Of a DNA stretch of 64,000 nt, positions 24,681 through 45,043 are shown one piece after another. The first letter of the stretch is position 1. The number at the start of each line of letters is the position of its first letter. This DNA is from Pseudomonas sp. KU26590. GTDB lineage: Bacteria; Pseudomonadota; Gammaproteobacteria; Pseudomonadales; Pseudomonadaceae. The stretch is taken from contig NZ_CP110644.1 of NCBI RefSeq assembly GCF_026153515.1, positions 5,087,501-5,151,500 of the forward strand, read 5' to 3'. The notes under the pieces were generated by a model that ran no database searches, was not told the origin of the DNA, and saw only the letters and a list, made by a program, of their open reading frames with translations. A program made the position numbers and the translations under genes.

Positions 24681-24935
24681 TCTGCCTGGGGGCAGATTGT
24701 TTCGCCTTCGGCGAGTTACTTTTAAAAAGCACTAAAAGTAACCAAAAGTGCCTGCTCTCGGTTGGGCCCGACTTCGTGGGGTTCCCTCACTCCGACGACG
24801 CTCCGTGGGCCCGCGCCGAACGGACATCCATGTCCTAGCGGCGCTCTCGCGGCATCCATGCCGCTCGGCCTACTGCGCGTCGTCTGCGTTCGGCCTGCAC
24901 CCAAGTCGCGATTGGCGGTGTTTGGACTTTTCGCT
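24681..24935 (+). repeat. Structured intergenic repeat, copy A
   Basis: Copy A contains an outer hairpin TCTGCC/GGCAGA (24681-24696), stem GTTACTTTT/AAAAGTAAC (24715-24742), a two-part stem GCGCCG + GGACAT with ATGTCC + CGGCGC (24813-24844) and GCGGCAT/ATGCCGC (24849-24864). The same layout recurs in copies B, C and D with compensatory base changes. Short open frames inside are not convincing genes. It forms an inverted pair with copy B, and the IS66 composite now lies between them. Confidence 0.8.
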
Positions 24936-24993
24936 TACGAAGATCAAAGGCTTCCCGGCTGAAGCCGGTCCCACTGACTGGGCGCCCCTCGAC

Positions 24994-25016
24994 TGTAGGA
25001 GCCGGCTTGCTGGCGA
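24994..25016. repeat. REP element
   Basis: A single REP, GTAGGAGCCGGCTTGCTGGC and three further bases, is identical to the units around the RAYT gene at 61-62 kb. Confidence 0.75.
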
Positions 25017-25141
25017 ACGCGGGGTATCTGACACGAAGATACCGCTGGGTATTGAGGAGTTCAGCGAGAGTGAGGGTTTACAGCAATAGAACAGGACGTT
25101 CTGAGGAAGCTAGGGCATGAAGCCCTAGCGGCGTGCAGTTA

Positions 25142-25402
25142 TCACTTTTTCTTTTTCGCAGGCTTGTCGGCTTTTTCTGCCTTGTCTGATTTCTTGGCCT
25201 TTTCTGGCTTGCTATCAGCTTTTTTTGCAGCCTTCTTTGGCTCAGCCGCTTTCTTGGTGTCTTTCTTGGCATCTTTCTTTTCGGAAGACTTAGAAAGCGC
25301 CGAAGCCGCCGCTGATTTCTTTTCCGGTGATGACTTTTTGTCTTTCAAATCCTTGCTGGCTTTCGAAGCTTCGCCTTTGCTTTTCTTGTCGTCTTTAGCC
25401 AC
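25142..25402 (-). CDS. Lysine/alanine-rich small basic protein
   Basis: The 86-residue product is about one third Lys, with Ala, Ser and Asp making up most of the rest, and it ends in KPAKKKK. It has no signal peptide and no hydrophobic core, so it is likely disordered and nucleic-acid binding, in the manner of histone H1-like bacterial proteins. The first third (SKASKDLKDKKSSPEKKSAA) is less repetitive than the Lys-rich tail. GAGAGG lies 8 bases before the GTG at 25402, so I prefer that start over the GTG at 25411. I cannot assign a family. Confidence 0.6.
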   Translation of the reverse strand: MAKDDKKSKGEASKASKDLKDKKSSPEKKSAAASALSKSSEKKDAKKDTKKAAEPKKAAKKADSKPEKAKKSDKAEKADKPAKKKK

Positions 25403-25474
25403 GTTAACCACCTCTCGAAGAGTGCCGGTATTAGCACAAGGCCTGTGGGAATCTCCACACGCTAATCATTAGGC

Positions 25475-25495
25475 GAACCTGCTTAAAAGCGGTTC
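25475..25495. other. Hairpin split from its T-run by IS66 insertion
   Basis: GAACC-T-GCTT pairs with AAGC-GGTTC around a 2-base loop. Removing the IS66 composite and one copy of the target duplication places AATCTTTTTT directly after the hairpin, giving a terminator-like structure. The insertion therefore moved the T-run about 3 kb away (to 28518-28527). Confidence 0.55.
25488..25495. repeat. Left copy of 8-bp IS66 target duplication
   Basis: AGCGGTTC abuts the left inverted repeat and is repeated exactly at 28510-28517. Eight bases is the IS66-family duplication length. Confidence 0.92.
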
Positions 25496-25544
25496 GTATG
25501 CGTCCGGCCAAGTCATCTACCCAGCCCCGCAAAGCCAAGACATG

Positions 25545-25570
25545 GTGTGCACTTAAATTTAAGTGGACAC
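25545..25570. repeat. Subterminal palindrome, left IS66 end
   Basis: A 26-bp near-perfect palindrome centred on TTAAATTTAA, with arms GTGT.CAC and GTG.ACAC, lies 49 bases inside the left end and 28 bases before tnpA. A similar palindrome lies 49 bases inside the right end. It may be a transposase or tnpA regulatory site. Confidence 0.7.
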
Positions 25571-25598
25571 CAGTTCTAGCCTTTTAAGCGGGTATTTC

Positions 25599-25931
25599 AT
25601 GCAGCCAACACGCCGTTCCTATTCCAAGTCCTTCAAGGCCCAAGTCATTCAAGAGTGTGCACAGCCCAGCGCTTCGATTGCCAGCGTCGCGCTCGGCCAT
25701 AGCCTCAACGCAAACCTCGTCCACAAATGGATTCGGCTGCAAGCGCAGAAAAGCCCTGCGCTCCCACCTGCATTTATTCCGTTACCCATGCTGCTGGCCG
25801 GGGCCAACTCCCATCCGGCCTCATCGAATATCTGCGTTGAAATACAACACCCGCGCGGCACCGTAAAAGTGAACTGGCCCACTGAAAATGCTGCTGCCTG
25901 CGCGACCTTTCTTCGAGACCTTCTACGATGA
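25599..25931 (+). CDS. tnpA: IS66 accessory protein TnpA
   Basis: The 110-residue product is the IS66 accessory protein with an N-terminal helix-turn-helix (RRSYSKSFKAQVIQE, then VALGHSLNANLVHKWIR), the pattern of IS66 TnpA. It starts at the ATG at 25599, 28 bases after the subterminal palindrome. Its last codons overlap tnpB by four bases, as is usual in this family. It is required with TnpB for transposition in studied IS66 members, though its exact role is unclear. Confidence 0.92.
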   Translation: MQPTRRSYSKSFKAQVIQECAQPSASIASVALGHSLNANLVHKWIRLQAQKSPALPPAFIPLPMLLAGANSHPASSNICVEIQHPRGTVKVNWPTENAAACATFLRDLLR

Positions 25932-26263
25932 TTCGCATCGACGCCATCTGGCTCGCCACCGAACCGATGGACATGCGCGCAGGCACCGACACGGCGTTAG
26001 CCAAGGTGATAGCGGTGTTCGGTGCGGCGCAGCCGCACTGTGCTTATCTGTTCGCCAACCGCCGCGCCAATCGCATGAAAGTGCTGGTGCATGACGGCTT
26101 CGGGATATGGCTGGCAGCGCGCCGGTTAAACCAAGGCAAGTTTCACTGGCCTGGCATTCGCCAAGGCTCAGAAATGGAACTCGATACCGAGCAGTTTCAG
26201 GCACTGGTGCTGGGTCTGCCATGGCAACGCGCAGGTTCTGGAGGCTCGATCACACTGCTTTAA
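25928..26263 (+). CDS. tnpB: IS66 accessory protein TnpB
   Basis: The 111-residue protein shows the full IS66 TnpB pattern: WLATEPMDMRAGTDT, AYLFANRRANRMKVLVHDG and the characteristic FGIWLAARRLNQGKFHW. It is the best-conserved IS66 accessory protein and is complete here. The ATG lies within the end of tnpA, suggesting translational coupling. The product is distinct from the unrelated TnpB of IS200/IS605. Confidence 0.95.
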   Translation: MIRIDAIWLATEPMDMRAGTDTALAKVIAVFGAAQPHCAYLFANRRANRMKVLVHDGFGIWLAARRLNQGKFHWPGIRQGSEMELDTEQFQALVLGLPWQRAGSGGSITLL

Positions 26264-26324
26264 CCGCTACCATTAGCCTATCGGTCTATCGCCGCGAATT
26301 GCCTGCTCTGGCAAAATCGGCGTC

Positions 26325-27935
26325 ATGACTTCGCTTCCCGATCTCGCTCACCTGACCCCTGAACAACTGCGCGCCTTGACGGCGCAGTTGATGCAGCGTG
26401 TCGAGACGCTCGACCACCAGGTCGACACGCTGGGCAAGACGGTAGAAACGCTCGACCAACAAGTTGAGACGATGGGTAAGACCGTTGAGACCATGGGCAA
26501 GAAGATCAGCCGCGACCAAACGCTGATCGAGAAACTGACCCACGAAATCGCCCAGCTCAAACGTTTGAAATTTGCCAAGCGTAGCGAACAGATGAATCCC
26601 GAGCAGGCCAGCCTGCTCGATGATCTGATCGACACCGATATCGCGGCAATTGAAGCAGAGCTTCAAAGCTTGCAGGCAGTGATAACTCCGGCCGAGAAAA
26701 AGCAGAAGCCCAAGCGCACCGCATTACCGGCTGAGTTTCCACGCACGCTGATCCATCACGAACCGGACAACACTCACTGCCCATGCGGCTGCGCCCTCAA
26801 GCGCATCGGCGAGGACGTCAGCGAGAAGCTGGACTACACGCCCGGCGTATTTACCGTTGAACGCCATTTACGTGGCAAGTGGGTCTGCGATGACTGCGAA
26901 ACGCTTATCCAGGCACCGGTTCCGGCGCAGGTTATTGATAAGGGCATCCCGACTGCGGGCCTACTTGCACACGTCATGATTGCCAAGTTTGCTGACCATC
27001 TGCCGCTTTACCGTCAGGAATCGATCTTCGGTCGAGCAGGCCTGGCGATTCCACGCTCAACCTTGGCTCAATGGGTGGGCGTGACGGGCGTGCAGTTGCA
27101 GCCGCTGGTCGACGCGCTGCGCGAAGTAGTGCTTGGGCAACAAGTCATCCACGCAGATGAAACACCGGTGCAGATGCTCATGCCGGGAACAAAGAAAACT
27201 CACCGTTCCTATGTGTGGGCCTACGCCACCAGCCAGTTCTCGGACTTGGCAGCGGTGGTTTATGACTTCAGTCCCAGTCGTGCCGGTGAGCATGCTCGCA
27301 ACTTCCTGCAAGACTGGAGGGGCAAGCTGGTCTGCGACGATTTTGGCGGCTACAAGGCCAGCTTCGAACTGGGCGTGACCGAGATCGGCTGCATGGCCCA
27401 TGCCAGGCGCAAATTCTTCGAGCTGCACGCCACGAATAAAAGCACGCTCGCCGAGCAAGCCCTGCGCTATATCCAGTTGTTGTACGAAATCGAGAGCGAA
27501 GTCCGCGATCTGGAGCCGGATTTACGGCGCCGAATACGGCAAGAAAAAGCCGTCCCAGTGATGAATATGTTGCATGCCTGGATGATCGCCCAGCGTGACC
27601 TCGTGCCCGGAGGCTCGGCCATCAGCAGAGCACTCGATTACAGCCTCAAACGCTGGGCAGCGCTGTCGCGCTACCTTGATGACGGGGCCGTACCCATAGA
27701 TAACAATTGGGCCGAAAACCAAATCAGGCCATGGGCTCTTGGGCGCAAGAACTGGCTCTTCGCAGGGTCTCTACGCAGCGGAAAACGGGCAGCGGCGATC
27801 ATGAGTCTGATCCAGTCGGCGAGACTGAATGGTCATGATCCTTATGCCTATCTGAAAGATGTTCTCACGCGGCTGCCGACTCAGCGGGCGAGTGAAATCG
27901 ACCAGTTGCTGCCGCATAAGTGGCAACCGTTTTAA
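26325..27935 (+). CDS. tnpC: IS66 transposase TnpC
   Basis: The 536-residue transposase has an N-terminal coiled coil of heptad-like units (ETLDHQVDTLGKTVETLDQQ, residues ~20-60), a zinc-binding region (HCPCGC near residue 149, then CDDCET) and a DDE domain (HADETPVQML with Asp and Glu, VCDDFGGYKASF with Asp, and WAENQIRPWALGRKNW with the final Glu). All catalytic positions expected of IS66 are present, and no frameshift is seen, so the element may be active. Confidence 0.96.
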   Translation: MTSLPDLAHLTPEQLRALTAQLMQRVETLDHQVDTLGKTVETLDQQVETMGKTVETMGKKISRDQTLIEKLTHEIAQLKRLKFAKRSEQMNPEQASLLDDLIDTDIAAIEAELQSLQAVITPAEKKQKPKRTALPAEFPRTLIHHEPDNTHCPCGCALKRIGEDVSEKLDYTPGVFTVERHLRGKWVCDDCETLIQAPVPAQVIDKGIPTAGLLAHVMIAKFADHLPLYRQESIFGRAGLAIPRSTLAQWVGVTGVQLQPLVDALREVVLGQQVIHADETPVQMLMPGTKKTHRSYVWAYATSQFSDLAAVVYDFSPSRAGEHARNFLQDWRGKLVCDDFGGYKASFELGVTEIGCMAHARRKFFELHATNKSTLAEQALRYIQLLYEIESEVRDLEPDLRRRIRQEKAVPVMNMLHAWMIAQRDLVPGGSAISRALDYSLKRWAALSRYLDDGAVPIDNNWAENQIRPWALGRKNWLFAGSLRSGKRAAAIMSLIQSARLNGHDPYAYLKDVLTRLPTQRASEIDQLLPHKWQPF

Positions 27936-27990
27936 GCACGCAAGGCGTGATGCCGGAGGCATACTTCTAACCATCATCGATACAGGCTGA

Positions 27991-28191
27991 TTACCCAACA
28001 GATACAAGGGTAGATCCGCCCCAAATGATCGCTTGCGCCACTATCACATTTTGCCCATTGAAGGTGACAGCAGGGCTACCATAAAGCTGGTAACCCATCT
28101 GCAATGCAGCACTCACACGGTGACAGAAAGCTGCATCGTCATGGCCAGTAAGAATACGATAAATTGGCAGATCGTCAGGTGGTACGGTCAC
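27991..28191 (-). CDS. DUF1737 domain protein carried by the IS66 composite
   Basis: The 66-residue product reads as a complete DUF1737 protein: YRILTGHDDAAFCHRVSAAL, GYQLYGSPAVTF and VIVAQAIIW are its recognisable core. A GAGGAG box lies 7 bases before the GTG start at 28191, so it looks translatable. It is transcribed against the transposase genes and lies between the intact IS66 and the inverted IS66 remnant, inside the outer target duplication. It is therefore cargo. The function of DUF1737 is unknown. Confidence 0.75.
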   Translation of the reverse strand: MTVPPDDLPIYRILTGHDDAAFCHRVSAALQMGYQLYGSPAVTFNGQNVIVAQAIIWGGSTLVSVG

Positions 28192-28372
28192 ATGCGAACT
28201 CCTCTAACATAGGGTGGTTCTGGCTCAAGATTGCTCATGTAGGGCACAGGTTATCGGCTTGCGTATCCTGAGTTCTGAAATAGATTACACCACTCGTGTG
28301 ACACTGCCATTTGGAAGGAAATGTACCCATCCTCAGCGCGCACTTTACAAGGCGGGTTGCCCAGGCGCTTAC

Positions 28373-28509
28373 CTTTAAAGGGTTTGGGATAAGAGGTTCT
28401 TTGGCGCATGGCAATCCTGATGATAGGGGCGATAGTGTCCACGTATTTTTAAGTGGACAACATCACCCTTATCGCTGGGATCGGGTAGGTGACTTCGCCG
28501 GACGCTTAC
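28373..28509 (-). mobile_element. Inverted remnant of a second IS66 left end
   Basis: Read on the minus strand, this segment has an IS66 terminal repeat (28483-28509), a subterminal palindrome (28435-28460) 49 bases from the end, and then an ATG at 28409 opening MRQRTSYPKPFK. That resembles the start of an IS66 TnpA (compare RRSYSKSFKAQ in the intact copy) before homology stops near 28373. The order and spacing copy the left end of the intact element. Confidence 0.75.
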
Positions 28510-28517
28510 AGCGGTTC
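28510..28517. repeat. Right copy of 8-bp IS66 target duplication
   Basis: AGCGGTTC directly follows the right inverted repeat and matches 25488-25495 exactly. Confidence 0.92.
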
Positions 28518-28584
28518 AATCTTTTTTAAGCGCTGAACGCAAAAATGACATCTGCCTCATATTCATCCGCGCCTTAAATGCCGG

Positions 28585-28607
28585 TTCGCCGGCAAGCCGG
28601 CTCCTAC
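28585..28607. repeat. REP element (inverse)
   Basis: TTCGCCGGCAAGCCGGCTCC and three further bases form a single REP of the class around the RAYT gene, with one base changed. Confidence 0.7.
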
Positions 28608-28663
28608 CGGAAAGCGAAAGACGATACGACGGACAGAGAAATAACCGGCGCCTGAAATGACCC

Positions 28664-28756
28664 CTTCCCGGCTAAAGCCGGTCCCACTAAAAGGCACATC
28701 GCGTACACCCCGTGGGACCGGCGGCGCACCCTGTAGGACCGGCTTCAGCCAGGAAG
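28664..28756. repeat. REP inverted pair, CTTCCCGGCTAAAGCC class
   Basis: A unit at 28664-28687 faces its inverse at 28733-28756, with a third partial copy (GTGGGACCGGCGGCG) between. The same class occurs at 37.6 kb and 44.7 kb and once at the end of repeat copy A. Confidence 0.75.
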
Positions 28757-28804
28757 CCTTTGCCGTTGCCGTTGCCGTTGCTTTTGATCTTCGTACACAA
28801 AAAG

Positions 28805-29053
28805 CCCAAACACCGCAAAAAGGCGACTTTGGTGCAGGCTGAACGCAGGTCTCGCGCAGTGGGCCGAGCCGCATGGATGCGGCGAGAGCGCCGTCAGGAC
28901 AGGGATGTCCGTTCGGCGCGGGCCCACGGAGCGAGACCGGAGTGAAGGAACCCGACGAAGTCGGGCCCAACCGAGAGCAGGCACTTTTGGTTACTTTTAG
29001 TGCTTTTTAAAAGTAACTCGCCGAAGGCGAAACAGTCGAGCCGTTAGGCCGAC
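28805..29053 (-). repeat. Structured intergenic repeat, copy B
   Basis: Read on the minus strand this matches copy A. It has CCGCAT/ATGCGG (28869-28882), GCGCCG + GGACA with TGTCC + CGGCGC (28888-28919), CCCGAC/GTCGGG (28930-28945), GTTACTTTT/AAAAGTAAC (28990-29017) and an outer stem GTCG+GCC with GGC+CGAC (29035-29053). The GTTAC hairpin faces away from copy A. Confidence 0.8.
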
Positions 29054-29081
29054 GCTCTTGATCTTAAACGCTTTTAAAACA

Positions 29082-29108
29082 AAAACGCCCCGAAGATCGG
29101 GGCGTTTT
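29082..29108. terminator. Rho-independent terminator of actP
   Basis: AAAACGCCCCGA pairs perfectly with TCGGGGCGTTTT around a 3-base loop, 20 bases beyond the actP stop on its strand. The symmetric A/T tails allow action in both directions. Confidence 0.9.
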
Positions 29109-29128
29109 CACTACAGCATCAGCTCACA

Positions 29129-30787
29129 TCAATGCGACACCGCACCACTGGCCCCAAGGCCCGTCTGCGAACGCACGAATTGCGGCATGAACAACGCACG
29201 CTCACCTTCCGCCGCCTTCGACTTGTCCGTAATCGAGAAAAACCAGATCCCGGCAAACGCAATCGCAATCGAAAACAACGCCGGGTACTCGTACGGGAAA
29301 ATCGCCTTCTCGTGATGCAGAATCTGCACCCAAATCGTTGGGCCGAGAATCATCAACACCACGGCACTGATCAAACCCATCCAGCCGCCGATCATCGCGC
29401 CGCGAGTGGTCAGGTTTTTCCAGTACATCGAAAGCAACAGCACCGGGAAGTTACAGCTCGCCGCAATGGAGAACGCCAGGCCCACCATGAACGCGATGTT
29501 CTGACTTTCGAACGCGATACCCAACCCTATCGCCACCACCGCCAACGCAACCGTGGTGTATTTCGACACACGGATCTCGTCTTTCTCGTTGGCCTTGCCC
29601 GCCTTGATCACACTGGCGTACAAGTCGTGGGACACCGCCGAAGCACCGGCCAGCGTCAAGCCTGCCACCACAGCGAGAATAGTCGCGAACGCCACCGCCG
29701 AGATGAAGCCCAGGAACAGACTGCCCCCGACCGCATCGGCCAGGTGAATCGCCGCCATGTTGTTGCCGCCGAGCAGCGCGCCCGCCGCGTCCTTGAACGT
29801 CGGGTTGGTGCTGACCAGCAGGATCGCGCCGAAACCGATGATGAAGGTCAGTATGTAGAAGTAACCGATGAAACCGGTCGCGTAGAGCACCGACTTACGG
29901 GCTTCCTTCGCATCACTCACAGTGAAGAAGCGCATCAGGATATGGGGCAGGCCCGCGGTACCGAACATCAGCGCCAGACCCAGTGAGAACGCCGAGACCG
30001 GATCTTTCACCAGACCGCCCGGGCTCATGATCGCCTCACCTTTGGGGTGAACCTTCACGGCTTCGGAGAACAGCACGTTGAAGTCGAAGTTGACGTGCTT
30101 CATCACCATCAACGCCATGAACGACGCGCCGGAGAGCAACATCACCGCCTTGATGATCTGTACCCACGTGGTCGCCAGCATGCCGCCGAACAGCACGTAC
30201 AGGCACATCAGGATACCGACGAGCACCACCGCCACGGCATAGTCCAGCCCGAACAACAGCTGGATCAGCTTGCCGGCGCCAACCATTTGCGCGATCAGGT
30301 AGAACGCCACGACCACCAGCGAACCGCAGGCGGACAGGGTACGGATTTCCTTTTGCTTCAGGCGATAGGACGCCACGTCAGCGAAGGTGTACTTGCCCAG
30401 GTTGCGCAGGCGTTCGGCGATCAGGAACAGGATGATCGGCCAGCCGACGAGGAAGCCGATGGAGTAGATCAGACCGTCGTAGCCGGAGGTGTAGACCAGC
30501 GCGGAAATCCCCAGGAAGGACGCCGCCGACATGTAGTCACCGGCGATGGCCAGACCGTTCTGGAAACCGGTGATCTTGCCGCCTGCCGAGTAATAGTCCG
30601 ACGCTGTCTTGTTCTTCTTCGACGCCCAGTAGGTGATGTAAAGGGTGAAACCGACAAAGACCACGAACATGATAATCGCCGACACGTTCAACGGTTGTTT
30701 CTGCACCGCACCGGTCAGCGCTTCGGCTGCCCAGAGTGTCGGTGCGAAAGCAGCAAGGCCGAAGGCCGCAAGCAGGCGCCGAATCAT
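29129..30787 (-). CDS. actP: Cation/acetate symporter ActP
   Basis: ActP is a sodium:solute symporter that takes up acetate and other short carboxylates. The 552-residue protein has a signal-like N-terminus ([18 protein letters not shown]), about 13 membrane helices and SSS-family motifs such as [20 protein letters not shown] and [15 protein letters not shown]. The ATG overlaps the stop of the upstream DUF485 gene (ATGA), so the two are coupled. Pseudomonads hold several ActP paralogues, so the substrate may not be acetate alone. Confidence 0.93.
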
Positions 30788-31095
30788 TGCTGTGCCTCCT
30801 TCAGGATGGCGTTGTTCAAGTCATCAAATTCACCGTTTGCGCGGCGAACGTAGATGGCGGTCAGCACAAACGCAGACACAATCAGCCCGACGCCGATCGG
30901 CATACCCCACGTGATGGTTGATGTGGCGCTGAGTTTAGCGCCGAGAATCTGAGGCCCATACGCAATCAAAAGGATGAATGCGGCATAGAGCCCAAGCATG
31001 ATTGCCGAGAGAATCCAGGCGAATCGTTCCCTTTTCGAGACCAGCTCCTTGAAACGCGGGCTGTTCTGAATCGAGAGGTAAATGCTGTCGTTCAT
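30784..31095 (-). CDS. DUF485 (YjcH-like) membrane protein
   Basis: The 103-residue protein has two membrane helices ([20 protein letters not shown] and [20 protein letters not shown]) after an N-terminal [14 protein letters not shown]485 proteins are the usual small partners of actP, encoded just upstream. I chose the ATG at 31095, which gives the family start [11 protein letters not shown]; a longer frame adds 14 unrelated residues. Its stop overlaps the actP start. Confidence 0.9.
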
Positions 31096-31256
31096 TGTTT
31101 TTGTCCTCGCAGCACAGATGGATGTCACGGTTTGCACTTTAGTCCGCTCTGCGATGCACTCCAGACGACCTTAGTATTAGAACGACATTAGTTGATGTTC
31201 GAAGGATTGCCTCTTTTGCATGCGGTTGATTGCGCCTAAGGCTCGGGGCAATAAAA

Positions 31257-31286
31257 AACCGCCTGGCGACGGCGCGCCAGGCGGTT
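31257..31286 (-). terminator. Rho-independent terminator of the betaine-binding gene
   Basis: On the minus strand AACCGCCTGGCG pairs with CGCCAGGCGGTT, followed by TTTT. It lies 29 bases past the stop of the binding-protein gene. Confidence 0.88.
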
Positions 31287-31314
31287 CGGTACAACGTTAA
31301 ATCTTTATGACCGA

Positions 31315-32172
31315 TTACTTACCGGTCCACTCTTTGACGCGATCCGGGTGTTTGGCAACCCAGTCCTTGGCCGCTGCTTCAGGCTTGGCGCCATCCTGGA
31401 TGGCGAGCATGACTTCGCCAATTTCATCTTTGTTGGTCCACTGGAATTTCTTCAGGAAATCCGCGACGTCCGGGGCCTTCTTGGCAAGGTCCAGGCTGCC
31501 GATGTTGTCGACGGTTTCAGCCGCACCATAAACGCCCTTCGGGTCTTCGAGGAACTTCAGCTTCCATTTCGCGAACATCCAGTGCGGCACCCAGCCGGTG
31601 ACGGCGATGGATTCTTTCTTGTTCTCGGCGCGGGTCAGCTCGGCGATCATGCCGGCGCCGGAACTGGCCTGCAGCTTGTAACCGTCCAGGCCGTAATCCT
31701 TGATCGCCTGATCGGTCTTGATCATCACGCCTGAACCAGCGTCGATGCCGACGATTTTCTTCTTGAAGGACTCGTCGGTCTTGAGGTCCGCCACCGAGTT
31801 GGCTTTCACGTACTCCGGCACGATCAGGCCGATTTTCGCGTCCTTGAAGTTGGGGCCGTAGTCGGTGACCTTGTCTTTGTTCTTGGTCCAGTACTCGCCG
31901 TGGGTCACGGGCAACCAGGCCGACAGCATCATGTCCAGTTTGCCGGTCGCGACGCCCTGCCACATGATCCCGGCCGCAACAGCCTGCAGCTTCACCGGAT
32001 AACCCAGTTTCTGTTTGATCACTTCGGCAGCGACGTTGGTGGTTGCAACACTGTCGGACCAGCCATCGACGTAACCGATGCTCAGCTCGGGTTTGGCGTC
32101 GGCGTGGGCCAGCGTGGCACTGATGGCCAATGCCAGCGCGGCACTGACACCCAGGATTTTTCGCATCGTCAT
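31315..32172 (-). CDS. Glycine betaine-type ABC substrate-binding protein
   Basis: The 285-residue periplasmic protein has a signal peptide cleaved after ALAHA and belongs to the OpuAC/ProX-like family. The aromatic residues expected for a quaternary-amine cage are present in the conserved places (GYVDGWSDS, GIMWQGV, SAWLPVTH, TGWVPHWMF). No permease or ATPase gene is adjacent, so like several Pseudomonas choline/betaine/carnitine binding proteins it probably feeds a core transporter encoded elsewhere. GGGGAAG precedes the ATG. Which quaternary amine it binds cannot be told. Confidence 0.88.
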   Translation of the reverse strand: MTMRKILGVSAALALAISATLAHADAKPELSIGYVDGWSDSVATTNVAAEVIKQKLGYPVKLQAVAAGIMWQGVATGKLDMMLSAWLPVTHGEYWTKNKDKVTDYGPNFKDAKIGLIVPEYVKANSVADLKTDESFKKKIVGIDAGSGVMIKTDQAIKDYGLDGYKLQASSGAGMIAELTRAENKKESIAVTGWVPHWMFAKWKLKFLEDPKGVYGAAETVDNIGSLDLAKKAPDVADFLKKFQWTNKDEIGEVMLAIQDGAKPEAAAKDWVAKHPDRVKEWTGK

Positions 32173-34451: not shown

Positions 34452-34828
34452 CATAACAAGAACAAAATGTGAAAACCCAATAAAAATAAGATGAATCGGC
34501 TCTGACATAACAAGAACAACGGCACAGAGACGCAGCCAACAGATTTTTTTGGAGTAGAAACGCTTTACCGAGGCCCCGGCCTCGCAGCCCGACAGAGAAC
34601 TCTAAAACTACCCCCAGGTAGCGGCCAGAACGGGTTGGATCACCTCTCGCAGAAGAGGAATCAAAGCAGGTCAGCGCTCAAAAAAATACGTTTGCTCTTG
34701 TATCCCGAATGGGGATCACCGAAGACGCTGTAAAGGGACCGGTTGCCAATAACAACAACAGACCGCCCTACAATAATAAGAAAGCGCACGTGCAACGATT
34801 AAAAGGGGAGCCTCGGCTCCCCTTTATG
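34452..34828 (+). ncRNA. CrcZ/CrcX/CrcY-family sRNA (Crc/Hfq decoy)
   Basis: These RNAs sequester Hfq-Crc and so relieve carbon catabolite repression. The ~375-nt transcript is predicted from a sigma-54 promoter to a strong terminator (34802-34825) and contains no plausible gene. It carries at least five A-rich triplet motifs of the AAnAAnAA type: AACAAGAACAAAA near 34456, AATAAAAATAAG near 34480, AACAAGAACAAC near 34510, AATAACAACAAC near 34748 and AATAATAAGAAA near 34775. Length, promoter type and motifs match the family. Its place after a GH17-like gene, not between cbrB and pcnB, suggests CrcX or CrcY rather than CrcZ. Confidence 0.8.
34802..34825 (+). terminator. Terminator of the Crc-decoy sRNA
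   Basis: AAAGGGGAGCC pairs with GGCTCCCCTTT around a 2-base loop. The T-run is short but the stem is 11 perfect pairs. Confidence 0.85.
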
Positions 34829-34866
34829 CTGTCTGGTGTTTGGCTTTCAGCCTTTAGTTTTTTAAG

Positions 34867-37946: not shown

Positions 37947-38801
37947 ATGACTCAATTTCGTAAAGTGCTGTCGATCCAGGCCGGGCAACCGACTTCGGAC
38001 GGCGCAGGCGTCAAGCTGACCCGTGTGTTCGGCGGTCAAGGCATCGAATCCTTCGACCCGTTCCTGATGCTCGACGAGTTCGGTTCCGAGAACCCCGACG
38101 AGTACATCGCTGGCTTTCCGCCGCACCCCCATCGCGGGTTCGAGACCGTGACCTACATGCTCGAAGGTCGCATGCGTCATGAAGACCACATGGGCAACGT
38201 CGGTCTGCTGCAGGGCGGCGGCGTGCAGTGGATGACCGCTGCGCGCGGGGTCATTCACAGCGAGATGCCCGAGCAGGAAGAAGGCGCCATGCGCGGCTTC
38301 CAGCTGTGGCTCAACCTGCCGGCCAAATCGAAGATGGGCGACGCCGGTTACGACGACATTCAGCCCGAGCGCATTCCGCGCATCACCACGCAGAACGGCG
38401 TCGATGTTGTGGTGATCGCAGGTCAGTTCGACGACGGCCAGACGTCCCAGGCAGGCGCCGTGCAGCGCCCGGACACCGAGCCGCAGTATTTCGATTTCCA
38501 CATGCCCGCCGGCAGCCACATCAACCCGCGCGTTGCCGATGGCCATCGCGTGCTGCTGTATGTGTACGAAGGAGAAGTCGAGATTGCCGGGCAGCCACAG
38601 AAACTCAGCCAGAGCCGTCTCGCGCGGTTGTCGGAAAGCGGTGAGATTCAGCTAAGCAGCCAAACGGGCGCACGCGTGTTGCTGATCGCTGGCAAGCCAC
38701 TGGGCGAACCGATCGTGCAGTACGGCCCGTTCGTAATGAACAGCCGTGAAGAAATCGAACAGGCCCTGCGGGATTTCCGGGATGACAAACTGACGGCGTG
38801 A
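37947..38801 (+). CDS. Pirin family protein
   Basis: The 284-residue protein is a bicupin pirin. The metal-binding residues are in FPPHPHRGFETVTYMLEG and MRHEDHMGN, followed by QWMTAARGVIHSEMPE, the most conserved pirin segment. Bacterial pirins include quercetinases and regulators of central metabolism, so the exact role is open. GGAG lies 8 bases before the ATG at 37947; the longer open frame upstream runs through REP sequence and is not coding. Confidence 0.92.
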   Translation: MTQFRKVLSIQAGQPTSDGAGVKLTRVFGGQGIESFDPFLMLDEFGSENPDEYIAGFPPHPHRGFETVTYMLEGRMRHEDHMGNVGLLQGGGVQWMTAARGVIHSEMPEQEEGAMRGFQLWLNLPAKSKMGDAGYDDIQPERIPRITTQNGVDVVVIAGQFDDGQTSQAGAVQRPDTEPQYFDFHMPAGSHINPRVADGHRVLLYVYEGEVEIAGQPQKLSQSRLARLSESGEIQLSSQTGARVLLIAGKPLGEPIVQYGPFVMNSREEIEQALRDFRDDKLTA

Positions 38802-38815
38802 TCGCCACTTACAGT

Positions 38816-39033
38816 GTAGGAGCGCGCTTGCCCGCGAATGCGATCTGCCTGAGCCAACGATGGCGCCTGACACAGCGCATTCGCCAGCAAGCCGGCTCCC
38901 ACAGGTTTTGCGCCTGACGCTGAATACCGGCCAAGGCAAATCCTTTGTAAGAGCGCGCTTGCCCGCGAATGGGGTAGGCCTGCAATAGATAGGGTGAATG
39001 ACACACCGCCATCGCGGGCAAGCGCGCGCCTAC
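38816..39033. repeat. Cluster of four REP elements
   Basis: Units at 38816-38838 and 38947-38970 (GTAGGAGCGCGCTTGCCCGC class) alternate with inverse units at 38880-38902 and 39011-39033. They fill the gap between the convergent pirin and patatin genes. Confidence 0.75.
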
Positions 39034-39086
39034 AGTGAGCTGCGACAGCTCATGCAGGGCCGCATTGAATCACTCGGGGCAGAGAT

Positions 39087-40319
39087 TCACTCCAGCCGCA
39101 AGAACCGCATCAACTCTTCCTTCTGGGCCATCGCGTCGCGGCGGCCCAGTTCGATGAGCTCGCTGCAATAACCCGACTCGAACAACAGATAGCTCAGCAC
39201 CCCTGCCCCGCTGGTCTTGGTCGCACCCGGGCCGCGCAGAAACGTGCGCAGCGCAGGAGGCAGTTCGCGGCGGTGACGGGCGGCGATTTCATCAATGGGC
39301 TGGCTGGGCGAAATCACCAGCACCTCCACAGGCGCAAGCGACTGAATGGGCGTCGATTCTGACGACTGCGGCCTGGGCATGTCAGACGCCGGCAGCAGGC
39401 GGCTGACCAGATTCAGCCGTTCCAGCAGTTCGATGTCACTCTCCAGGCTGTCAATGAACGTGCTGTTGAGCATGTGCCCACCGATCTGCGCAAGACTCGG
39501 TTGCACGCCACGGACCGCACGCGGCACGGGCGGGTTCACGCCTGGGCCACGGGGGTTGCCGCTGACGCCCACCACCAGCACGCGGTTGGCGCCCAGGTGC
39601 AGGGCCGGGCTGATCGGCGCCGACTGCCGCACCGCGCCGTCACCAAAATATTCCTGGCCCAGCTTCACGGGCGCAAACAGCAAGGGGATCGCCGAACTGG
39701 CCAGCAGATGGTCGATGGTCAAACGTGTCGGCAGGCCGATCCTGCGATGCCGCAGCCAGGATTCGATCGTGCCCTTGCCCTGATAAAACGTGACCGCCTG
39801 CCCTGACTCATAACCAAACGCCGTAATCGCCACTGCACGCAGCTGCTTGGCTTCAATGGCTTCGTCGATGCCGTCGAGGTTGAGGCGCGCGGTCAGCAGG
39901 TCTTTCAGCGGCGAACTGTTGAGCAGCGCCACCGGCACCTGTTGGCGACCGATGCCCAACAGGCTGCGGCCGAAGAACCGTGCGGCCTGGCGAATGACGC
40001 CAGTCCAGTCACTGCGCAACACCTGATGGCTGCGAAAGCCCTGCCAGAAGTCAGTGAGTTCGTGGATTGCCGTCCGAAATTGCGCGGCGCCGCTGGCCAG
40101 CTTCACCGCATTGATCGCCCCGGCGGAGGTGCCGACGATGACCGGAAAAGGATTCTTCGCGCCTATCGGCAACAAATCGGCGATGCCGGCGAGCACGCCC
40201 ACCTGATACGCCGCGCGGGCACCGCCGCCGGACAGGATCAGCCCGGTGATGGGCTCGACGCCGGGAGCCAAGGCTGAGGCGTGGCGCACCGCTTGTTGTT
40301 CTATGGTGCTTGTCGTCAT
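39087..40319 (-). CDS. Patatin-like phospholipase
   Basis: The 410-residue protein has all three patatin signatures: the oxyanion loop LSGGGARAAYQVG near residue 30, the nucleophile elbow VGTSAGAIN near 63 and the catalytic Asp in YFGDGAVRQ near 228. No signal peptide is visible, so it is probably cytoplasmic or peripherally membrane-bound and unlike secreted ExoU or PlpD. The C-terminal region (LRTFLRGPGATKTSGAG) is typical of the Pseudomonas branch. It lies 19 bases downstream of lpxL on the same strand. Confidence 0.92.
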   Translation of the reverse strand: MTTSTIEQQAVRHASALAPGVEPITGLILSGGGARAAYQVGVLAGIADLLPIGAKNPFPVIVGTSAGAINAVKLASGAAQFRTAIHELTDFWQGFRSHQVLRSDWTGVIRQAARFFGRSLLGIGRQQVPVALLNSSPLKDLLTARLNLDGIDEAIEAKQLRAVAITAFGYESGQAVTFYQGKGTIESWLRHRRIGLPTRLTIDHLLASSAIPLLFAPVKLGQEYFGDGAVRQSAPISPALHLGANRVLVVGVSGNPRGPGVNPPVPRAVRGVQPSLAQIGGHMLNSTFIDSLESDIELLERLNLVSRLLPASDMPRPQSSESTPIQSLAPVEVLVISPSQPIDEIAARHRRELPPALRTFLRGPGATKTSGAGVLSYLLFESGYCSELIELGRRDAMAQKEELMRFLRLE

Positions 40320-40338
40320 GGGGTCTCAGCTCTTGGTT

Positions 40339-41271
40339 TCAGCCACGCTTCTTGTACAGCTTCGGCTCACCCGGCGGCCGACTCTTGAACCGCCGGTGGG
40401 CCCAGAGGTACTGCTCGGGGCATGCGGTGACGGCGCGCTCGACCCATTGATTGATGCGAATGCAGTCCGCCTCGTCGCTCTCCCCCGGAAAATCGCTCAG
40501 CGGCGGATGGATCACCAGCGTGTAGCCGCTGCCGTCGGCCAGGCGCTCCTGAGTGAACGGCACGACCAGCGCGTGGCCGAGCTTGGCAAATTTACTGGTG
40601 GCCGGCACGGTGGCGGCCTGAATGCCGAACAACGGCACGAAGAGGCTCTGCTTGGCGCCGTAGTCCTGATCTGGCGCATACCAGATCGCCCGGCCCTTAC
40701 GCAATTGCTTGATCATGCCGCGCACGTCTTCGCGCTCGACGGCAATTGAATCCTGGTTATGCCGCTCGCGGCCGCGTCGCTGAATGTAATCAAATAGCGC
40801 GTTCTTGTGCTCGCGGTACATGCCGTCGATGGTGTGCTGCTGCCCGAGCAGGGCCGCGCCGATTTCAAGCGTCGTGAAGTGCAGCGCCATGAGGATGACG
40901 CCATGGCCGTCCAGTTGCGCCTGCTTTAAATGATGAAGGCCTTCGATGTGCGCCAGCCGCGCCAGACGGGGCTTGCTCCACCACCAGCTCATGGCCATCT
41001 CGAAAAAAGCGATGCCGGTGGAGGCGAAGTTGGCCTTGAGCAGGCGCTTGCGCTCGGCTTTCGAATACTGCGGGAAACACAGTTCGAGGTTACGCGCGGC
41101 AATGACCCGCCGATCGGTCGCCTGGTAATACATGACCCGACCCAGGCCACGGCCGATCACCAGCAAGGCGCGAAAAGGCAACTGCACGATCAGCCAGAGC
41201 ACGCCCAGCCCCAGCCACAGCAGCCAGAAGCGGGGATGAAGAAAGTGAGCTCGAAAACGCGGGCGATCCAT
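40339..41271 (-). CDS. lpxL: Lipid A acyltransferase (LpxL/HtrB)
   Basis: The 310-residue inner-membrane acyltransferase adds a secondary acyl chain to lipid A. It has an N-terminal TM anchor ([19 protein letters not shown]), the catalytic His/Glu motif [10 protein letters not shown] near residue 130, WYAPDQDYG near 193 and the C-terminal [16 protein letters not shown]. The ATG at 41271 gives the typical length; a 78-residue upstream extension would run into minC. It is divergent from minC, as in other pseudomonads. Confidence 0.94.
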
Positions 41272-41413
41272 TACAGCTTCCGTCAGGACAAAGGCGGGCA
41301 TTCTACATCGGTTCGCGCGGATCGCGCCCCCGTCGGTTGCGCCTCCCTTGCGGCTGGCGGGCGTTATCGTTATAAGTCTCGGCACTTTTAGCGACAAGCC
41401 GCTGTATGCCGAC

Positions 41414-42160
41414 ATGAGCCAAATCGAATTGCAAGACAAGGACCCCGTGTTCCAGCTGAAGGGCAGCATGCTGGCCATCACCGTGCTGGAACTGGCCCGC
41501 AACAACCTCGAAGCGCTGGATCGTCAACTGGCGGCAAAAGTCGCCCAGGCGCCGAATTTCTTCAGCAATACACCGCTGGTGCTGGCCCTCGACAAGTTGC
41601 CGCCGGATGAAGGCGCGATCGATCTGCCGGCAATGATGCGCATCTGCCGCCAGCACGGTTTGCGCACCCTGGCCATTCGTGCCAACCGGATTGAAGACAT
41701 CGCCGCCGCCATTTCCATCGACCTGCCGGTGCTGCCGCCTTCGGGCGCGCGCGAGCGACCGCTTGATCCGACGGAAGGCGAAGTCAAAAAGAAGCCGGAA
41801 ATCATCGAGAAGCCGCCCGAGCCGTTGATCAAGCCGACCAAGATCATCACCGCCCCTGTGCGCGGTGGTCAGCAGATCTACGCCCAGGGCTCCGATCTGG
41901 TGGTGATCTCCTCGGTCAGCCCCGGCGCCGAACTGCTCGCCGACGGCAATATTCACGTGTACGGCCCGATGCGCGGCCGCGCGCTGGCGGGGATCAAAGG
42001 CGATACCAAGGCACGGATTTTCTGCCAGCAAATGGTTGCCGAACTGATCTCGATTGCCGGCCAGTACAAGGTGTCCGAAGACCTGCGTCGCGATCCACTA
42101 TGGGGCGCCGGGGTACAGATCAGTCTGTCCGGGGACGTGTTGAACATCACCCGTCTTTAA
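41414..42160 (+). CDS. minC: Septum site-determining protein MinC
   Basis: MinC inhibits FtsZ assembly away from midcell. The 248-residue protein has the N-terminal FtsZ-inhibiting domain ([20 protein letters not shown] to ~110), a proline-rich linker ([10 protein letters not shown]) and the C-terminal beta-helix that binds MinD ([32 protein letters not shown]). The ATG at 41414 begins the conserved N-terminus. A 200-base gap before minD, containing two hairpins, is longer than in many operons. Confidence 0.95.
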
Positions 42161-42360
42161 CGGATACTGCGCCATTTTTAAGCCACTCTGATTCGTCGCG
42201 AAAACGACGCGAAGGCACCGGGACGTTCGGGATATTTTTTTGTTTTCCCGAACATGGACTCCTTCACGGGTTCCGATCACCGCCCTCGCCCGCTTTAGTT
42301 GCGCCGTCACGAGGGGCTCTTCAGGGACTCAACGTCCTTTTCCTCTAGGGGTGATACACC

Positions 42361-43173
42361 TTGGCCAAGATTCTCGTGGTTACATCCGGCAAGGGTGGTG
42401 TGGGCAAGACCACCACCAGCGCCGCCATCGGTACCGGTCTCGCACTGCGCGGCCACAAAACGGTCATCGTCGATTTCGACGTCGGCCTGCGTAACCTCGA
42501 CCTGATCATGGGTTGCGAGCGTCGCGTCGTTTATGACTTCGTCAACGTAGTCAACGGCGAAGCCAACCTGCAACAAGCGCTGATCAAAGACAAGAAGATC
42601 GAAGGTCTTTATGTCCTCGCCGCCAGCCAGACCCGTGACAAAGACGCGCTGACCAAAGAAGGCGTGGAAAAAGTCCTGATGGAACTCAAGGAAACCTTCG
42701 AGTACGTCGTCTGCGACTCCCCTGCCGGTATCGAAACGGGCGCTCACCTGGCGATGTATTTCGCCGACGAAGCCATCGTCGTGACCAACCCGGAAGTGTC
42801 CTCGGTTCGTGATTCGGACCGCATGCTCGGCCTGCTGGCCAGCAAGTCCCGCCGCGCCGAGCGTGGCGAAGACCCGATCAAGGAGCACTTGCTCCTGACC
42901 CGCTACAACCCTGAGCGCGTGAGCAAGGGCGAGATGCTGGGCGTTGAAGACGTCAAGGAAATCCTGGCGGTCACCCTGCTGGGCGTGATCCCGGAATCCC
43001 AGGCGGTACTCAAGGCTTCCAACCAGGGCGTGCCGGTGATCCTCGATGACCAGAGCGACGCCGGCCAGGCGTACAGCGATGCCGTTGACCGTCTTTTGGG
43101 CAAGGAAAAAGAGCATCGTTTCCTGGACGTACAGAAAAAAGGATTTTTCGAACGCCTGTTCGGGGGTAACTGA
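42361..43173 (+). CDS. minD: Septum site-determining ATPase MinD
   Basis: MinD is the membrane-cycling ATPase that recruits MinC and is released by MinE. The 270-residue protein has the deviant Walker [22 protein letters not shown], the Walker B region CDSPAGIE and the C-terminal amphipathic helix ([12 protein letters not shown]). It begins with TTG, after AGGGGTGAT; no in-frame ATG would keep the intact N-terminus. The TGA stop overlaps the minE ATG. Confidence 0.97.
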
Positions 43174-43427
43174 TGAGCATTTTTGACTTCTTTCGTGCCA
43201 ACAAAAAGCCCAGCACCGCGTCGGTAGCGAAAGAGCGTCTACAGATCATCGTGGCGCATGAACGCGGCCAACGCAGCACCCCGGATTACCTGCCCGCCTT
43301 GCAGAAGGAGTTGGTCGAGGTGATCCGCAAGTACGTCAATATAGGTAACGATGACGTGCATGTCGCCCTTGAAAACGACGGCAGCTGCTCGATTCTGGAA
43401 CTGAATATCACCCTGCCTGATCGTTGA
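43173..43427 (+). CDS. minE: Cell division topological specificity factor MinE
   Basis: The 84-residue MinE stimulates MinD ATPase and sets pole-to-pole oscillation. It shows the membrane-targeting N-terminus [13 protein letters not shown], the MinD-contact region [15 protein letters not shown] and the dimerising C-terminal strand [10 protein letters not shown]. It is coupled to minD by a TGATG overlap. A hairpin TTGCCTGA/TCAGGCAA follows at 43457-43486 and may mark the operon end. Confidence 0.96.
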
Positions 43428-43579
43428 TCGAGAAGGCAGTCGCCACGGCGGCCCGGTTGCCTGACTCCCTTTGCGGAATCAGGCAAGCGCGCCGCCGTTG
43501 GCGTTCCTGAAGACCTGTTTTCTGCGCCGCGATGGTTCTTGCGATCGTGTTGCGCCTGTTTGAGCTATGAGGCTGTTCC

Positions 43580-44215
43580 ATGCCGCTGTCCAACGTTCAT
43601 ATCCTCCATCAGGACGACGCTGTCCTGGTGGTGAACAAGCCCACCCTGCTGCTTTCGGTCCCTGGTCGTGCTGACGATAACAAGGACTGTCTGATCACGC
43701 GCCTGCAGGAAAACGGCTACCCCGAGGCGCGCATCGTCCATCGGCTGGACTGGGAAACGTCCGGGATCATTTTGCTGGCGCGTGATGCGGACACGCACCG
43801 TGAGTTGTCCCGGCAGTTTCACGACCGCGAGACCGAGAAGGCTTACACGGCACTGGCGTGGGGCCAGCCAGACCTGGACAGCGGCAGTATTGATTTGCCG
43901 TTGCGCTACGACCCGCCGACCAAGCCGCGTCATGTGGTGGATCATGAGTTCGGCAAGCATGCGTTGACGTTCTGGAAGGTGCTGGAGCGGTATGACACCC
44001 ATTGTCGGGTTGAGTTGACGCCGATCACCGGGCGGTCGCATCAATTGCGGGTGCATATGTTGTCGATCGGGCATCCGTTGTTGGGCGATGGCTTATATGC
44101 GCATCCGGAGGCGCTGGCGGCGTATCCGCGGTTGTGTCTGCATGCGAGCATGCTGGCGTTTACGCATCCGGGGACGGGCGAGCGTTTGCGGTTTGAGTGT
44201 CCGGCGCCGTTTTGA
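43580..44215 (+). CDS. rluA: RluA-family pseudouridine synthase
   Basis: The 211-residue enzyme has the catalytic Asp motif ARIVHRLDWETSGIILLAR near residue 54, an early VVNKPTLLLSVPG and late LTPITGRSHQLRVHM, the three RluA-family landmarks. It has no S4 domain, which with the short length fits the RluA branch that modifies 23S rRNA U746 and tRNA U32. A position after minCDE is common in Pseudomonas. Close paralogues exist, so substrate assignment is by family and context. Confidence 0.88.
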   Translation: MPLSNVHILHQDDAVLVVNKPTLLLSVPGRADDNKDCLITRLQENGYPEARIVHRLDWETSGIILLARDADTHRELSRQFHDRETEKAYTALAWGQPDLDSGSIDLPLRYDPPTKPRHVVDHEFGKHALTFWKVLERYDTHCRVELTPITGRSHQLRVHMLSIGHPLLGDGLYAHPEALAAYPRLCLHASMLAFTHPGTGERLRFECPAPF

Positions 44216-44249
44216 TGTTGTTAGTCAGAACCGCGTGAAGATCAAAAGC

Positions 44250-44505
44250 ATCTGCCTAACGTCAGATCATTTCGCCTTCGGCGAGTTACTTGGAAAAAGC
44301 CCCCCAAGTAACCAAGGGGGCTTGCTCTCGGTTGGGTCCCTCCTCCGTCGGGATTCCCTCACTCCGACGATGCTCCGTGGGCCCGCGCCGAACGGACATC
44401 CATGTCCTGACGGCGCTCTCGCCGCATCCATGCGGCTCGACCCACTCCACATCGTCTGCGCTCGGCCTGCACCCAAGTCGCGTTTGGCGATGTCTGGACT
44501 TGCGT
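44250..44505 (+). repeat. Structured intergenic repeat, copy C
   Basis: Copy C shows GTTACTTGG/CCAAGTAAC (44285-44312), GCGCCG + GGACAT with ATGTCC + CGGCGC (44385-44416) and CCGCAT/ATGCGG (44422-44435). Compared with copy A, the first stem swaps T-A pairs for G-C pairs on both sides and the last stem swaps a G-C for a C-G pair. The outer hairpin is reduced to TCTG/CAGA. It is inverted relative to copy D. Confidence 0.8.
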
Positions 44506-44604
44506 GGGAAAGATCAAAGTCAAAAGCGCAGCTGGGACGCGGAGCGTCTGGGCGGCATTACCACGCGGAGCGTGGGAACGATCGGAACAGCAACAGCAAC
44601 AGCA

Positions 44605-44765
44605 TTCGCGAGCAAGCTCGCTCCCACAGGGAGGGAGTTCGGTCTGCCAAACTGCCAGCGCCCAGACCGGCCCCTTCCCGGCTGAAGCCGGTCCCACTAA
44701 AAGCAGCGCGTGCATCCAGCAGGAAGGCAGTGACCCCGACTGTGGGACCGGCTTCAGCCGGGAAG
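44605..44765. repeat. REP elements between structured repeats C and D
   Basis: A REP (44605-44627) is followed by an inverted pair of the CTTCCCGGCTGAAGCC class (44674-44697 and 44742-44765). They sit symmetrically between copies C and D. No gene is supported in the whole 920-base gap between rluA and apeB. Confidence 0.75.
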
Positions 44766-44799
44766 CTTTTGATCTTGATCTTCATCCACAAAAAGCTCA

Positions 44800-45043
44800 G
44801 TCACCGCCAAACGCGACTTGAGTGCAGGCTGAACGCAGGTCTCGCGGAGTGGGCCGAGCCGCATGGATGCGGCGAGAGCCGCCCCCCGCCATGGATGGCG
44901 GATGGCGGCGGGCCCACGGAGCGAGACCGGAGTGAGGGAACCCCGACGAAGGAGGAGCCCAACCAGGAGCACAAGCCCTTGGTTACTTGGGGCTTTATCA
45001 AGTAACTCGCCGAAGGCGAAACAGTCTGCCCCCAGGCAGACGC
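44800..45043 (-). repeat. Structured intergenic repeat, copy D
   Basis: Copy D keeps the layout on the minus strand: CCGCAT/ATGCGG (44859-44872), GTTACTTG/CAAGTAAC (44982-45006) and outer TCTGCC/GGCAGA (45025-45040). The central hairpin (44878-44909) is rewritten as GCCGCC + CCGCCAT with ATGGCGG + GGCGGC, fully paired although its sequence differs from GGACAT/ATGTCC in the other copies. Confidence 0.8.

Follow-up and report, generated by a model that had tools for sequence, protein, structure and literature searches.

What is a structured sequence that recurs between the genes of a Pseudomonas chromosome selected for: its DNA, its RNA or a protein? The question is raised by a stretch of 64,000 nucleotides from Pseudomonas sp. 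KU26590 (hereafter, the window), in which an earlier note had described four intergenic repeats of ~250 bp (A–D) with paired changes in their stems. All four lie where they were placed and the stems quoted for them are correct. The strands given below are those of the inferred RNA, opposite to the orientation of that note, which had A and C on the plus strand and B and D on the minus strand.

22390..22587, minus strand: CsrA/RsmA-family gene, one of four CsrA-family genes in the genome
24681..24935, minus strand: repeat A (first drawn on the plus strand)
24765..24884, minus strand: RNA core of A, with outer helix, multibranch and two ANGGAN hairpins (R1 match, genome 5112265-5112384)
24853..24860, minus strand: hairpin loop 1 of A, CATGGATG
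24825..24832, minus strand: hairpin loop 2 of A, CATGGATG
28805..29053, plus strand: repeat B
28848..28967, plus strand: RNA core of B (R1 match, genome 5116348-5116467)
28872..28879, plus strand: hairpin loop 1 of B, CATGGATG
28900..28907, plus strand: hairpin loop 2 of B, CAGGGATG
28981..29017, plus strand: 3' module of B (helices 6 and 7 of the 31-copy alignment)
29018..29030, plus strand: invariant TCGCC/GGCGA hairpin of B
44250..44505, minus strand: repeat C
44336..44456, minus strand: RNA core of C, loops CATGGATG at 44425-44432 and 44397-44404
44800..45043, plus strand: repeat D
44838..44958, plus strand: RNA core of D, loops CATGGATG at 44862-44869 and 44890-44897 (TwoAYGGAY, 40.9 bits)
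44250..45043, no strand: divergent pair C/D, RNA strands pointing outwards

These four proved to be a small part of a large family. Among 150 candidates scored in the same genome, 82 matched the full core model, all with E below 1e-18, which we count as at least 82 copies (~164 loops). The search of Pseudomonas genomes that the earlier note had proposed found the family in 99 of 149, own genome included, by blastn and in 99 of 149 by the model; the repeat was not found in 50 of the 149 sampled. Other genomes carry 76 (G020), at least 147 (G113) or 23 copies (G061). Matches outside the genus were mostly weak (E 1.4e-6 to 3.6e-4), with one at 1.6e-12 in a genome of the same family. Phage records gave no match to the repeat, and in a plasmid collection three queries matched 1, 1 and 2 records, none of them in full.

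We then asked what the copies have kept. In alignment A6, which holds 31 of the 82 copies of the genome, A–D among them, standard pairs filled 98.4% of 1716 pair cells and both sides had changed at 19 of 56 pairs (shuffle mean 9.7), giving a covariation score of 0.185 against 0.065 when shuffled and at most 0.035 with slid partners. One copy with a stem deletion, L005, was dropped from A6 and is also absent from alignments A3 and A4, the last of which lacks L004 as well. Across species, alignment A7 (33 rows: 30 of 65 model matches chosen by hand plus window copies B, C and D, the row for B beginning 15 nt within the core) showed both-side changes at 21 of 30 core pairs and a score of 0.446, against 0.169 shuffled and at most 0.102 slid. 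Covariation on wide alignments thus exceeds both controls, within the genome and between species, and bears out the claim that folding of the nucleic acid is under selection. The TCGCC/GGCGA hairpin, invariant in the 31 copies, is uninformative on covariation either way.

Whether that folding concerns RNA or single-stranded DNA had been left as an alternative in the earlier note. At paired positions, G-U combinations outnumbered A-C by 106 to 8 (1761 letter-letter cells in 62 rows of alignment A5, whose rows were found with the model or blastn and fitted to the model); three rows had been removed before this count, namely the antisense matches L031 (+) and L033 (−) and the poorly aligned L056 2026-2115. 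The copies of the genome itself gave 20 against 5. From this excess we conclude that selection acts on RNA of the strand opposite to the one first drawn, which supports folded RNA of one strand, and not single-stranded DNA, as its target. Folding energy favours neither strand, since the z-scores of B are nearly equal (−5.96 for the RNA strand, −5.74 for the other); the core of D has a z-score of −6.08.

Read on its RNA strand, the core is a closed multibranched structure with two CA[N]GGA[N]G hairpin loops, in which the A, the GGA and the closing C-G stay constant while the stems are rewired. Loop 1 is CATGGATG in all 31 copies of A6 and loop 2 in 29, the exceptions being one CAGGGATG (in B) and one CATGGATA; the loops of this genome thus read ATGGAT and, once, AGGGAT. 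Neither loop varies in its A or GGA in any of the 33 A7 rows, with T, G or A at the first N, which may also be missing, and T, C or A at the second; the two GGA lie 28 nt apart in 30 rows and 29 nt apart in 3. At least two CA[N]GGA[N]G matches occur in 59 of 62 A5 rows; in G023, one loop is lost in both aligned copies (L044). Of nine CATGGATG octamers in the window, seven fall within the repeats, and CANGGANG occurs 39 times, eight of them repeat loops, against a naive expectation of 31, so that this window count shows no enrichment of CANGGANG outside the repeats.

The repeats bring at least two ANGGAN hairpin loops close together, as is characteristic of CsrA/Rsm sites, and judged by their sequence the loops correspond to the CsrA/RsmE site. 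RsmE works with hexaloops of the form ANGGAN, and the CsrB repeats read CAGGA(U/A/C)G (PMC7652899). In P. putida, RsmA, RsmE and RsmI all bind the CATGGATG of cfcR mRNA, where a changed GGA lifted the repression (PMC6849547); this binding, published for another RNA, suggests by analogy that the repeat loops may be bound too. A remark drawn from SELEX, that CsrA may disfavour stems of very high stability (PMC7652899), was counted against an Rsm-binding reading of the repeats.

The earlier note could match the repeats to no named motif, a view replaced by the Rfam search that it had called for. The nearest named family is TwoAYGGAY (RF01731), which belongs with rsmX to the CsrA/Rsm clan CL00106 and is a predicted CsrA-binding RNA (PMC4333381). 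The layout agrees, with two AYGGAY-type loop hairpins joined by a closing stem. Repeats A, B and D scored 35.9, 32.0 and 40.9 bits and C gave no row at E 1, all below the Rfam gathering score of 43 bits, so we call the window copies TwoAYGGAY-like rather than members by Rfam's rule; 8 of 18 related loci, and 5 of 7 within the genus, passed this threshold.

Downstream of the core, the 3' module of B runs GCACT (b'), GTTACTTTT (a), AGTGC (b), a T tract and AAAAGTAAC (a'). Helices a-a' and b'-b overlap and are thus alternatives. An H-type pseudoknot was considered and rejected, and mutually exclusive helices seem more likely because the loop crossing nine pairs would span only ~4 nt. On the opposite strand, the TCGCC/GGCGA hairpin of B is followed by TTACTTTT and is terminator-like there. 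Simple consensus scans of the window gave no GacA box with a promoter of the repeat's own: no sigma-70-like promoter was found in 24600-29150 or 43900-45400, and 13 sites with at most three mismatches to what we take to be the GacA-box consensus, against 8.6 expected, are not above chance.

High copy number, pairing and unfixed position lay beyond the view of the earlier note. Could these repeats act purely as DNA, as MITE- or REPIN-like elements that owe their hairpins and inverted pairing to transposition or DNA binding and whose RNA, if any, is incidental? Like such elements they are multicopy, non-coding and variable in position, the last as compared at C/D, a pair flanked by a pseudouridine synthase gene and an M18 aminopeptidase gene. 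In 15 of 15 relatives the C/D gene has no copy beside it; 9 of these relatives keep the same gene pair and 9 carry the family elsewhere, so position is not conserved; most simply, the repeat moves, the variable position at C/D probably reflecting insertion, while absence at this one locus could in principle reflect losses instead. Close neighbours form divergent pairs in 23 of 24 cases here (interiors read for 17 of the 23) and 19 of 19 in a relative, and inverted pairs in 7 of 7 of a further close-neighbour set, and the pairs are nested among other palindromic repeats. Units in G113, whose pairing list spans 71 of at least 147 copies, share outer inverted ends, with both ends at 6 of 11 loci. 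GATCAA-rich tracts occur at both repeat ends, and a regular-expression scan of 120 named loci for an IS110-type motif gave nothing. Outside the genus, the two copies of L096 face each other (+ then −), against the rule in Pseudomonas. A and B were discarded as a pair, being separated by an IS66 element and a small lysine-rich gene. What makes a DNA-only role unlikely is the G-U excess, which points to RNA of one strand, together with the constant A and GGA beside free N positions, unexpected for DNA hairpin use; neither a transposase nor a target duplication was identified. Mobility and an RNA function are, moreover, compatible and not exclusive.

Less likely still is a cis-acting role, in which the repeat would stop transcription or serve as a 3' or 5' UTR signal for adjoining genes and any Rsm binding would be local. 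At least 57 of the 81 outer junctions do have a convergent gene whose 3' end points at the repeat's outer edge, and end hairpins were recognised in 52 of these 57, 34 of them within ~45 bases of the stop codon, where a run of six T precedes the element only once. The outer module carries terminator-like hairpins on both strands, and 24 of 81 junctions lie upstream of a co-directional gene, a class in which A was counted though it is convergent, since the codon-score caller that supplied the neighbours missed at least two small genes beside it (the lysine-rich gene, and at 24454-24612 a DUF3309 gene with its 3' end towards A). Yet the varying position at C/D leaves no fixed target gene, and at those 57 or more junctions the RNA strand runs antisense to the end of the adjoining gene, which therefore transcribes the other strand and not the Rsm-type loops. 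A small conserved protein gene is highly improbable: the G+C-rich DNA accounts for the long frames that run through the repeats, but seven frames gave no Pfam match above the cut-off (one row, GerPB, E 0.11), the copies differ by 1- and 2-nt indels, substitutions track base pairing, and no frame is open in all 33 A7 rows (best 28 of 33), in keeping with the earlier judgement that coding is less likely.

We thus favour, with a probability of about 0.6, a mobile, high-copy, dispersed repeat whose RNA, if transcribed as we infer, would bind and may titrate Rsm proteins. Its copy number, pairing geometry, variable position, RNA-strand covariation, CANGGANG loops and Rfam kinship are established. 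Each repeat would be one copy of a non-coding element with its folded RNA on the strand opposite to that first drawn; its core would present two ANGGAN loops 28 or 29 nt apart, which one RsmA/CsrA dimer could clamp, and its 3' module of overlapping hairpins and T tracts would form the outer end, often by the 3' end of a convergent gene. Read-through from a neighbouring promoter, or an internal one, would yield an Rsm-binding RNA from each copy, and together the ~82 copies, with ~164 loops, could titrate RsmA/E in the manner of RsmY/Z; alternatively, each copy could protect and regulate its host transcript. More tentatively, and doubtful to us, the repeat might be a self-spreading RNA decoy, an inverted-pair mobile element giving one Rsm-binding RNA whichever strand is read, whose copy number would set a genome-wide Gac/Rsm buffer and whose RNA would be sheltered by Rsm binding. 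The leader that precedes the core shows little conservation (between-species blastn matches often stop at query 186-218 of 255), an observation counted against the favoured reading, as are the scans without a promoter or GacA box, the antisense orientation at most outer junctions, the folding energy that favours neither strand and the loop lost in G023.

In Pseudomonas, Gac/Rsm governs secondary metabolism, biofilm and motility, and the prevailing view is that a few sRNA genes supply the RNAs that antagonise it. Should dozens of dispersed mobile copies bind Rsm proteins as well, species would differ widely in their pool of sites (no copy found in 50 of 149 genomes, at least 147 copies at the other extreme), models of Rsm regulons would change, and repeated intergenic regions in Rsm pull-downs could be explained. 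The reading also proposes a concrete role for the orphan family TwoAYGGAY, and perhaps for anonymous intergenic repeats.

Among known systems, the repeat resembles TwoAYGGAY in its two adjacent AYGGAY-loop hairpins with a shared closing stem, D aligning through both loops, but its core is part of a ~250-nt unit that also comprises an outer helix and a 3' module and occurs dozens of times and in divergent pairs; that TwoAYGGAY binds CsrA is itself a prediction. As in the sponges RsmX/Y/Z and CsrB/C, several GGA hairpins would be expected to hold Rsm/CsrA dimers, but those are one to few sRNA genes, under GacA in Pseudomonas, whereas the repeat has many dispersed copies with two clear loops each. 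It shares with Pseudomonas REPINs and MITEs its inverted pairs, its short, non-coding, intergenic nature and a position not common to the species, but its arms are structured RNA units of ~250 nt, while REP hairpins are short. The P. fluorescens repeats R26, R178 and R200 (352, 101 and 320 bp; 9 to 47 copies where present; Silby 2009, PMC2718517) are compatible in size and copy number, the terms of this comparison rather than sequence, and the passages of PMC2718517 that describe these anonymous intergenic repeats give them no RNA or Rsm role. In P. putida KT2440, where the authors of PMC7937890 judged rsmY and rsmZ to be the main, if not only, true antagonists, which was counted against the favoured reading, intergenic regions adjoining ISPpu8 are bound in vivo by RsmA/E/I, and one is described as a 'long palindromic region' (PMC7937890); the rsmY primer of that study, used to find KT2440-like genomes, matched 0 of 398. 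Repeated and, in one case, palindromic like our repeat, and with Rsm binding in vivo as a feature of their own, these flanking regions are by their description plausible members of the family.

Four intergenic repeats of about 250 bp, reported in the earlier note to share an order of hairpins with paired stem substitutions, were confirmed in the window sequence at the places and in the form described:

24681-24935, RNA taken to be on the - strand: repeat A
28805-29053, RNA taken to be on the + strand: repeat B
44250-44505, RNA taken to be on the - strand: repeat C
44800-45043, RNA taken to be on the + strand: repeat D

With A as the query, blastn scored at least 40 matches in this genome. R1, a covariance model built on the 120-nt core from 30 sequences of this genome, gave at least 82 full-model matches here among 150 candidates scored, and 76, at least 147 and 23 copies in three relatives. 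The family was found in 99 of 149 genomes of a genus sample by blastn (own genome counted), and in 99 of 149 by R1 under strict filters; in a class sample, R1 matched 10 of 185 genomes (own counted), mostly weakly. R1 matches leave a copy-free arc of 2.07 Mb that starts at 5.16 Mb, crosses the contig ends, stops at 1.05 Mb and includes dnaA at 0.42 Mb.

We assigned the RNA to the strand opposite to the one first drawn, where most broken pairs were C-A and thus G-U on the other strand. There, G-U exceeded A-C by 20 to 5 in a sequence-only alignment of 31 own copies, and by 106 to 8 (Watson-Crick, 1580; other cells, 67) in 62 rows from other genomes, an alignment fitted to the model and so biased towards pairing. 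Folding energy by itself did not tell the strands apart. Read 5' to 3' on this strand, the element comprises:

Outer helix, 8 pairs: GACGACGC/GCGTCGTC, GGTCTCGC/GCGAGACC, ATCGTTGC/GCAATGAT and others
Internal loop of 3 nt, its 3' side GGA
Helix of 7 pairs, then two arms
Arm 1: hairpin 1, loop ATGGAT
Arm 2: a stem bearing hairpin 2, loop ATGGAT
Purine-rich linker, then a small hairpin
3' module, in order: b' (GCACY), a (GTTACTTTT), b (RGTGC), T tract, a' (AAAAGTAAC)
Invariant TCGCC/GGCGA hairpin, then a variable end hairpin

Both helices of the 3' module are supported despite their overlap, a-a' being paired in 99.6% of cells and b'-b in 98.7%. This module has terminator-like matches on both strands; the C/D stretch holds 5 against 1.5 when shuffled and the A/B stretch 12 against 5.5, counts that include some matches outside the repeats. 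A convergent gene turns its 3' end towards the outer edge in 57 of 81 cases (two-sided binomial test against an expected one half, p 0.0003), A being miscounted among the 24 that do not, as the gene caller overlooked the adjoining DUF3309 gene. Among the 52 convergent junctions whose end hairpins were recognised, the stop codon lies within about 45 bases in 34, only one of which has a run of six T between stop codon and element; an ordinary terminator precedes the element at other junctions, A and B included. Between A and B we also observed an IS66 element (25542-28462; three genes, Pfam HTH_Tnp_1, TnpB_IS66 and DDE_Tnp_IS66) and, between A and that element, a small GTG-started gene (25139-25402, - strand) for a lysine-rich, histone-like product of 86 aa that had no match in a Pfam search.

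Neighbours less than 2.5 kb apart are ordered - then + in 23 of 24 pairs and + + in one (one-sided binomial test against an expected one in four, with pairs treated as independent, p 2.6e-13). The same order holds for 19/19 pairs in one relative (G020) and 7/7 in the listed part of another (G113), and is reversed at L096, a locus outside the genus. The 17 of 23 pair interiors that were read contain other, nested palindromic repeats and GATCAA tracts. Further palindromic families (GGCTTCCCGGCTRAAGCCGG, REP-like GTAGGAGC...GCTCCTAC, ACGCGGAGCGT) occur at 44540-44760 and 61384-62719, nested with or near the element.

Position is variable at C/D: orthologues of the left-hand gene in 15 other Pseudomonas species had no copy within 1.5 kb on either side (0/15), with the same M18 aminopeptidase gene next in 9/15 as judged by eye and the family elsewhere in the genome in 9/15 species. 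In G113, a shared end sequence lies on the right at 9/11 loci, its inverse on the left at 7/11 and both at 6/11; it was not seen at element ends in the own genome. CACACAAACTTGCCAGTCC and its inverse, with at most 3 mismatches, stand beyond both outer ends of the G113 units L185, L191, L203, L206, L209 and L046, and possibly represent true transposon ends. Separately, an IS110-family transposase gene (L200, 385-1434, - strand; Pfam Transposase_20, DEDD_Tnp_IS110) abuts an element copy in G113, and L212 carries sequence similar to it, judged by eye only.

Of the two arm loops, loop 1 reads CATGGATG in 31/31 own copies and loop 2 in 29/31, the remaining two being CAGGGATG and CATGGATA. Across species, A and GGA are kept in both loops in all 33 rows while the N positions vary, and the loops are 28 or 29 nt apart in 33/33; at least two loop-motif matches, some of them CAGGA(C/T/A)G, occur in 59 of 62 rows from other genomes. 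Published RsmE and CsrA sites show features of this kind (PMC7652899), and CATGGATG in cfcR mRNA is a site for RsmA, RsmE and RsmI (PMC6849547). Four genes of the CsrA family are present in this genome, one of them in the window at 22390-22587.

The repeats probably work through RNA: read-through transcription would yield the ANGGAN strand, which would fold and bind one Rsm dimer, and the copies might jointly titrate Rsm or each act on its own transcript. The inverted-pair geometry would provide one sense copy from either strand. In P. putida KT2440, intergenic RNA flanking ISPpu8, an IS4-family element (PMC3056050), was pulled down in vivo with all three Rsm proteins, one such region being termed long palindromic (PMC7937890); if those regions belong to this family, this may be direct evidence that the repeat binds Rsm.

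At gathering thresholds, Rfam called CrcZ alone in the whole window and none of the repeats. The CrcZ sRNA (34453-34857, 283 bits) is a decoy of the Hfq/Crc system. Below threshold, TwoAYGGAY (RF01731) was the best row for the A, B and D cores, and the sole row for C was a weak rsmX (18.3 bits), of the same clan; among related loci, 8/18 passed the TwoAYGGAY threshold (5/7 in the genus, 3/11 outside). Searches confined to open-licence papers brought up no high-copy, paired, position-variable form with this RNA-strand signature and Rsm-type loops, and the anonymous repeats R26/R178/R200 (PMC2718517) may be the same DNA. The kind itself is already known or predicted, a TwoAYGGAY-like, CsrA-type RNA: TwoAYGGAY is a probable RNA in its discovery paper (PMC2864571) and was predicted in 2014 to bind CsrA (PMC4333381).
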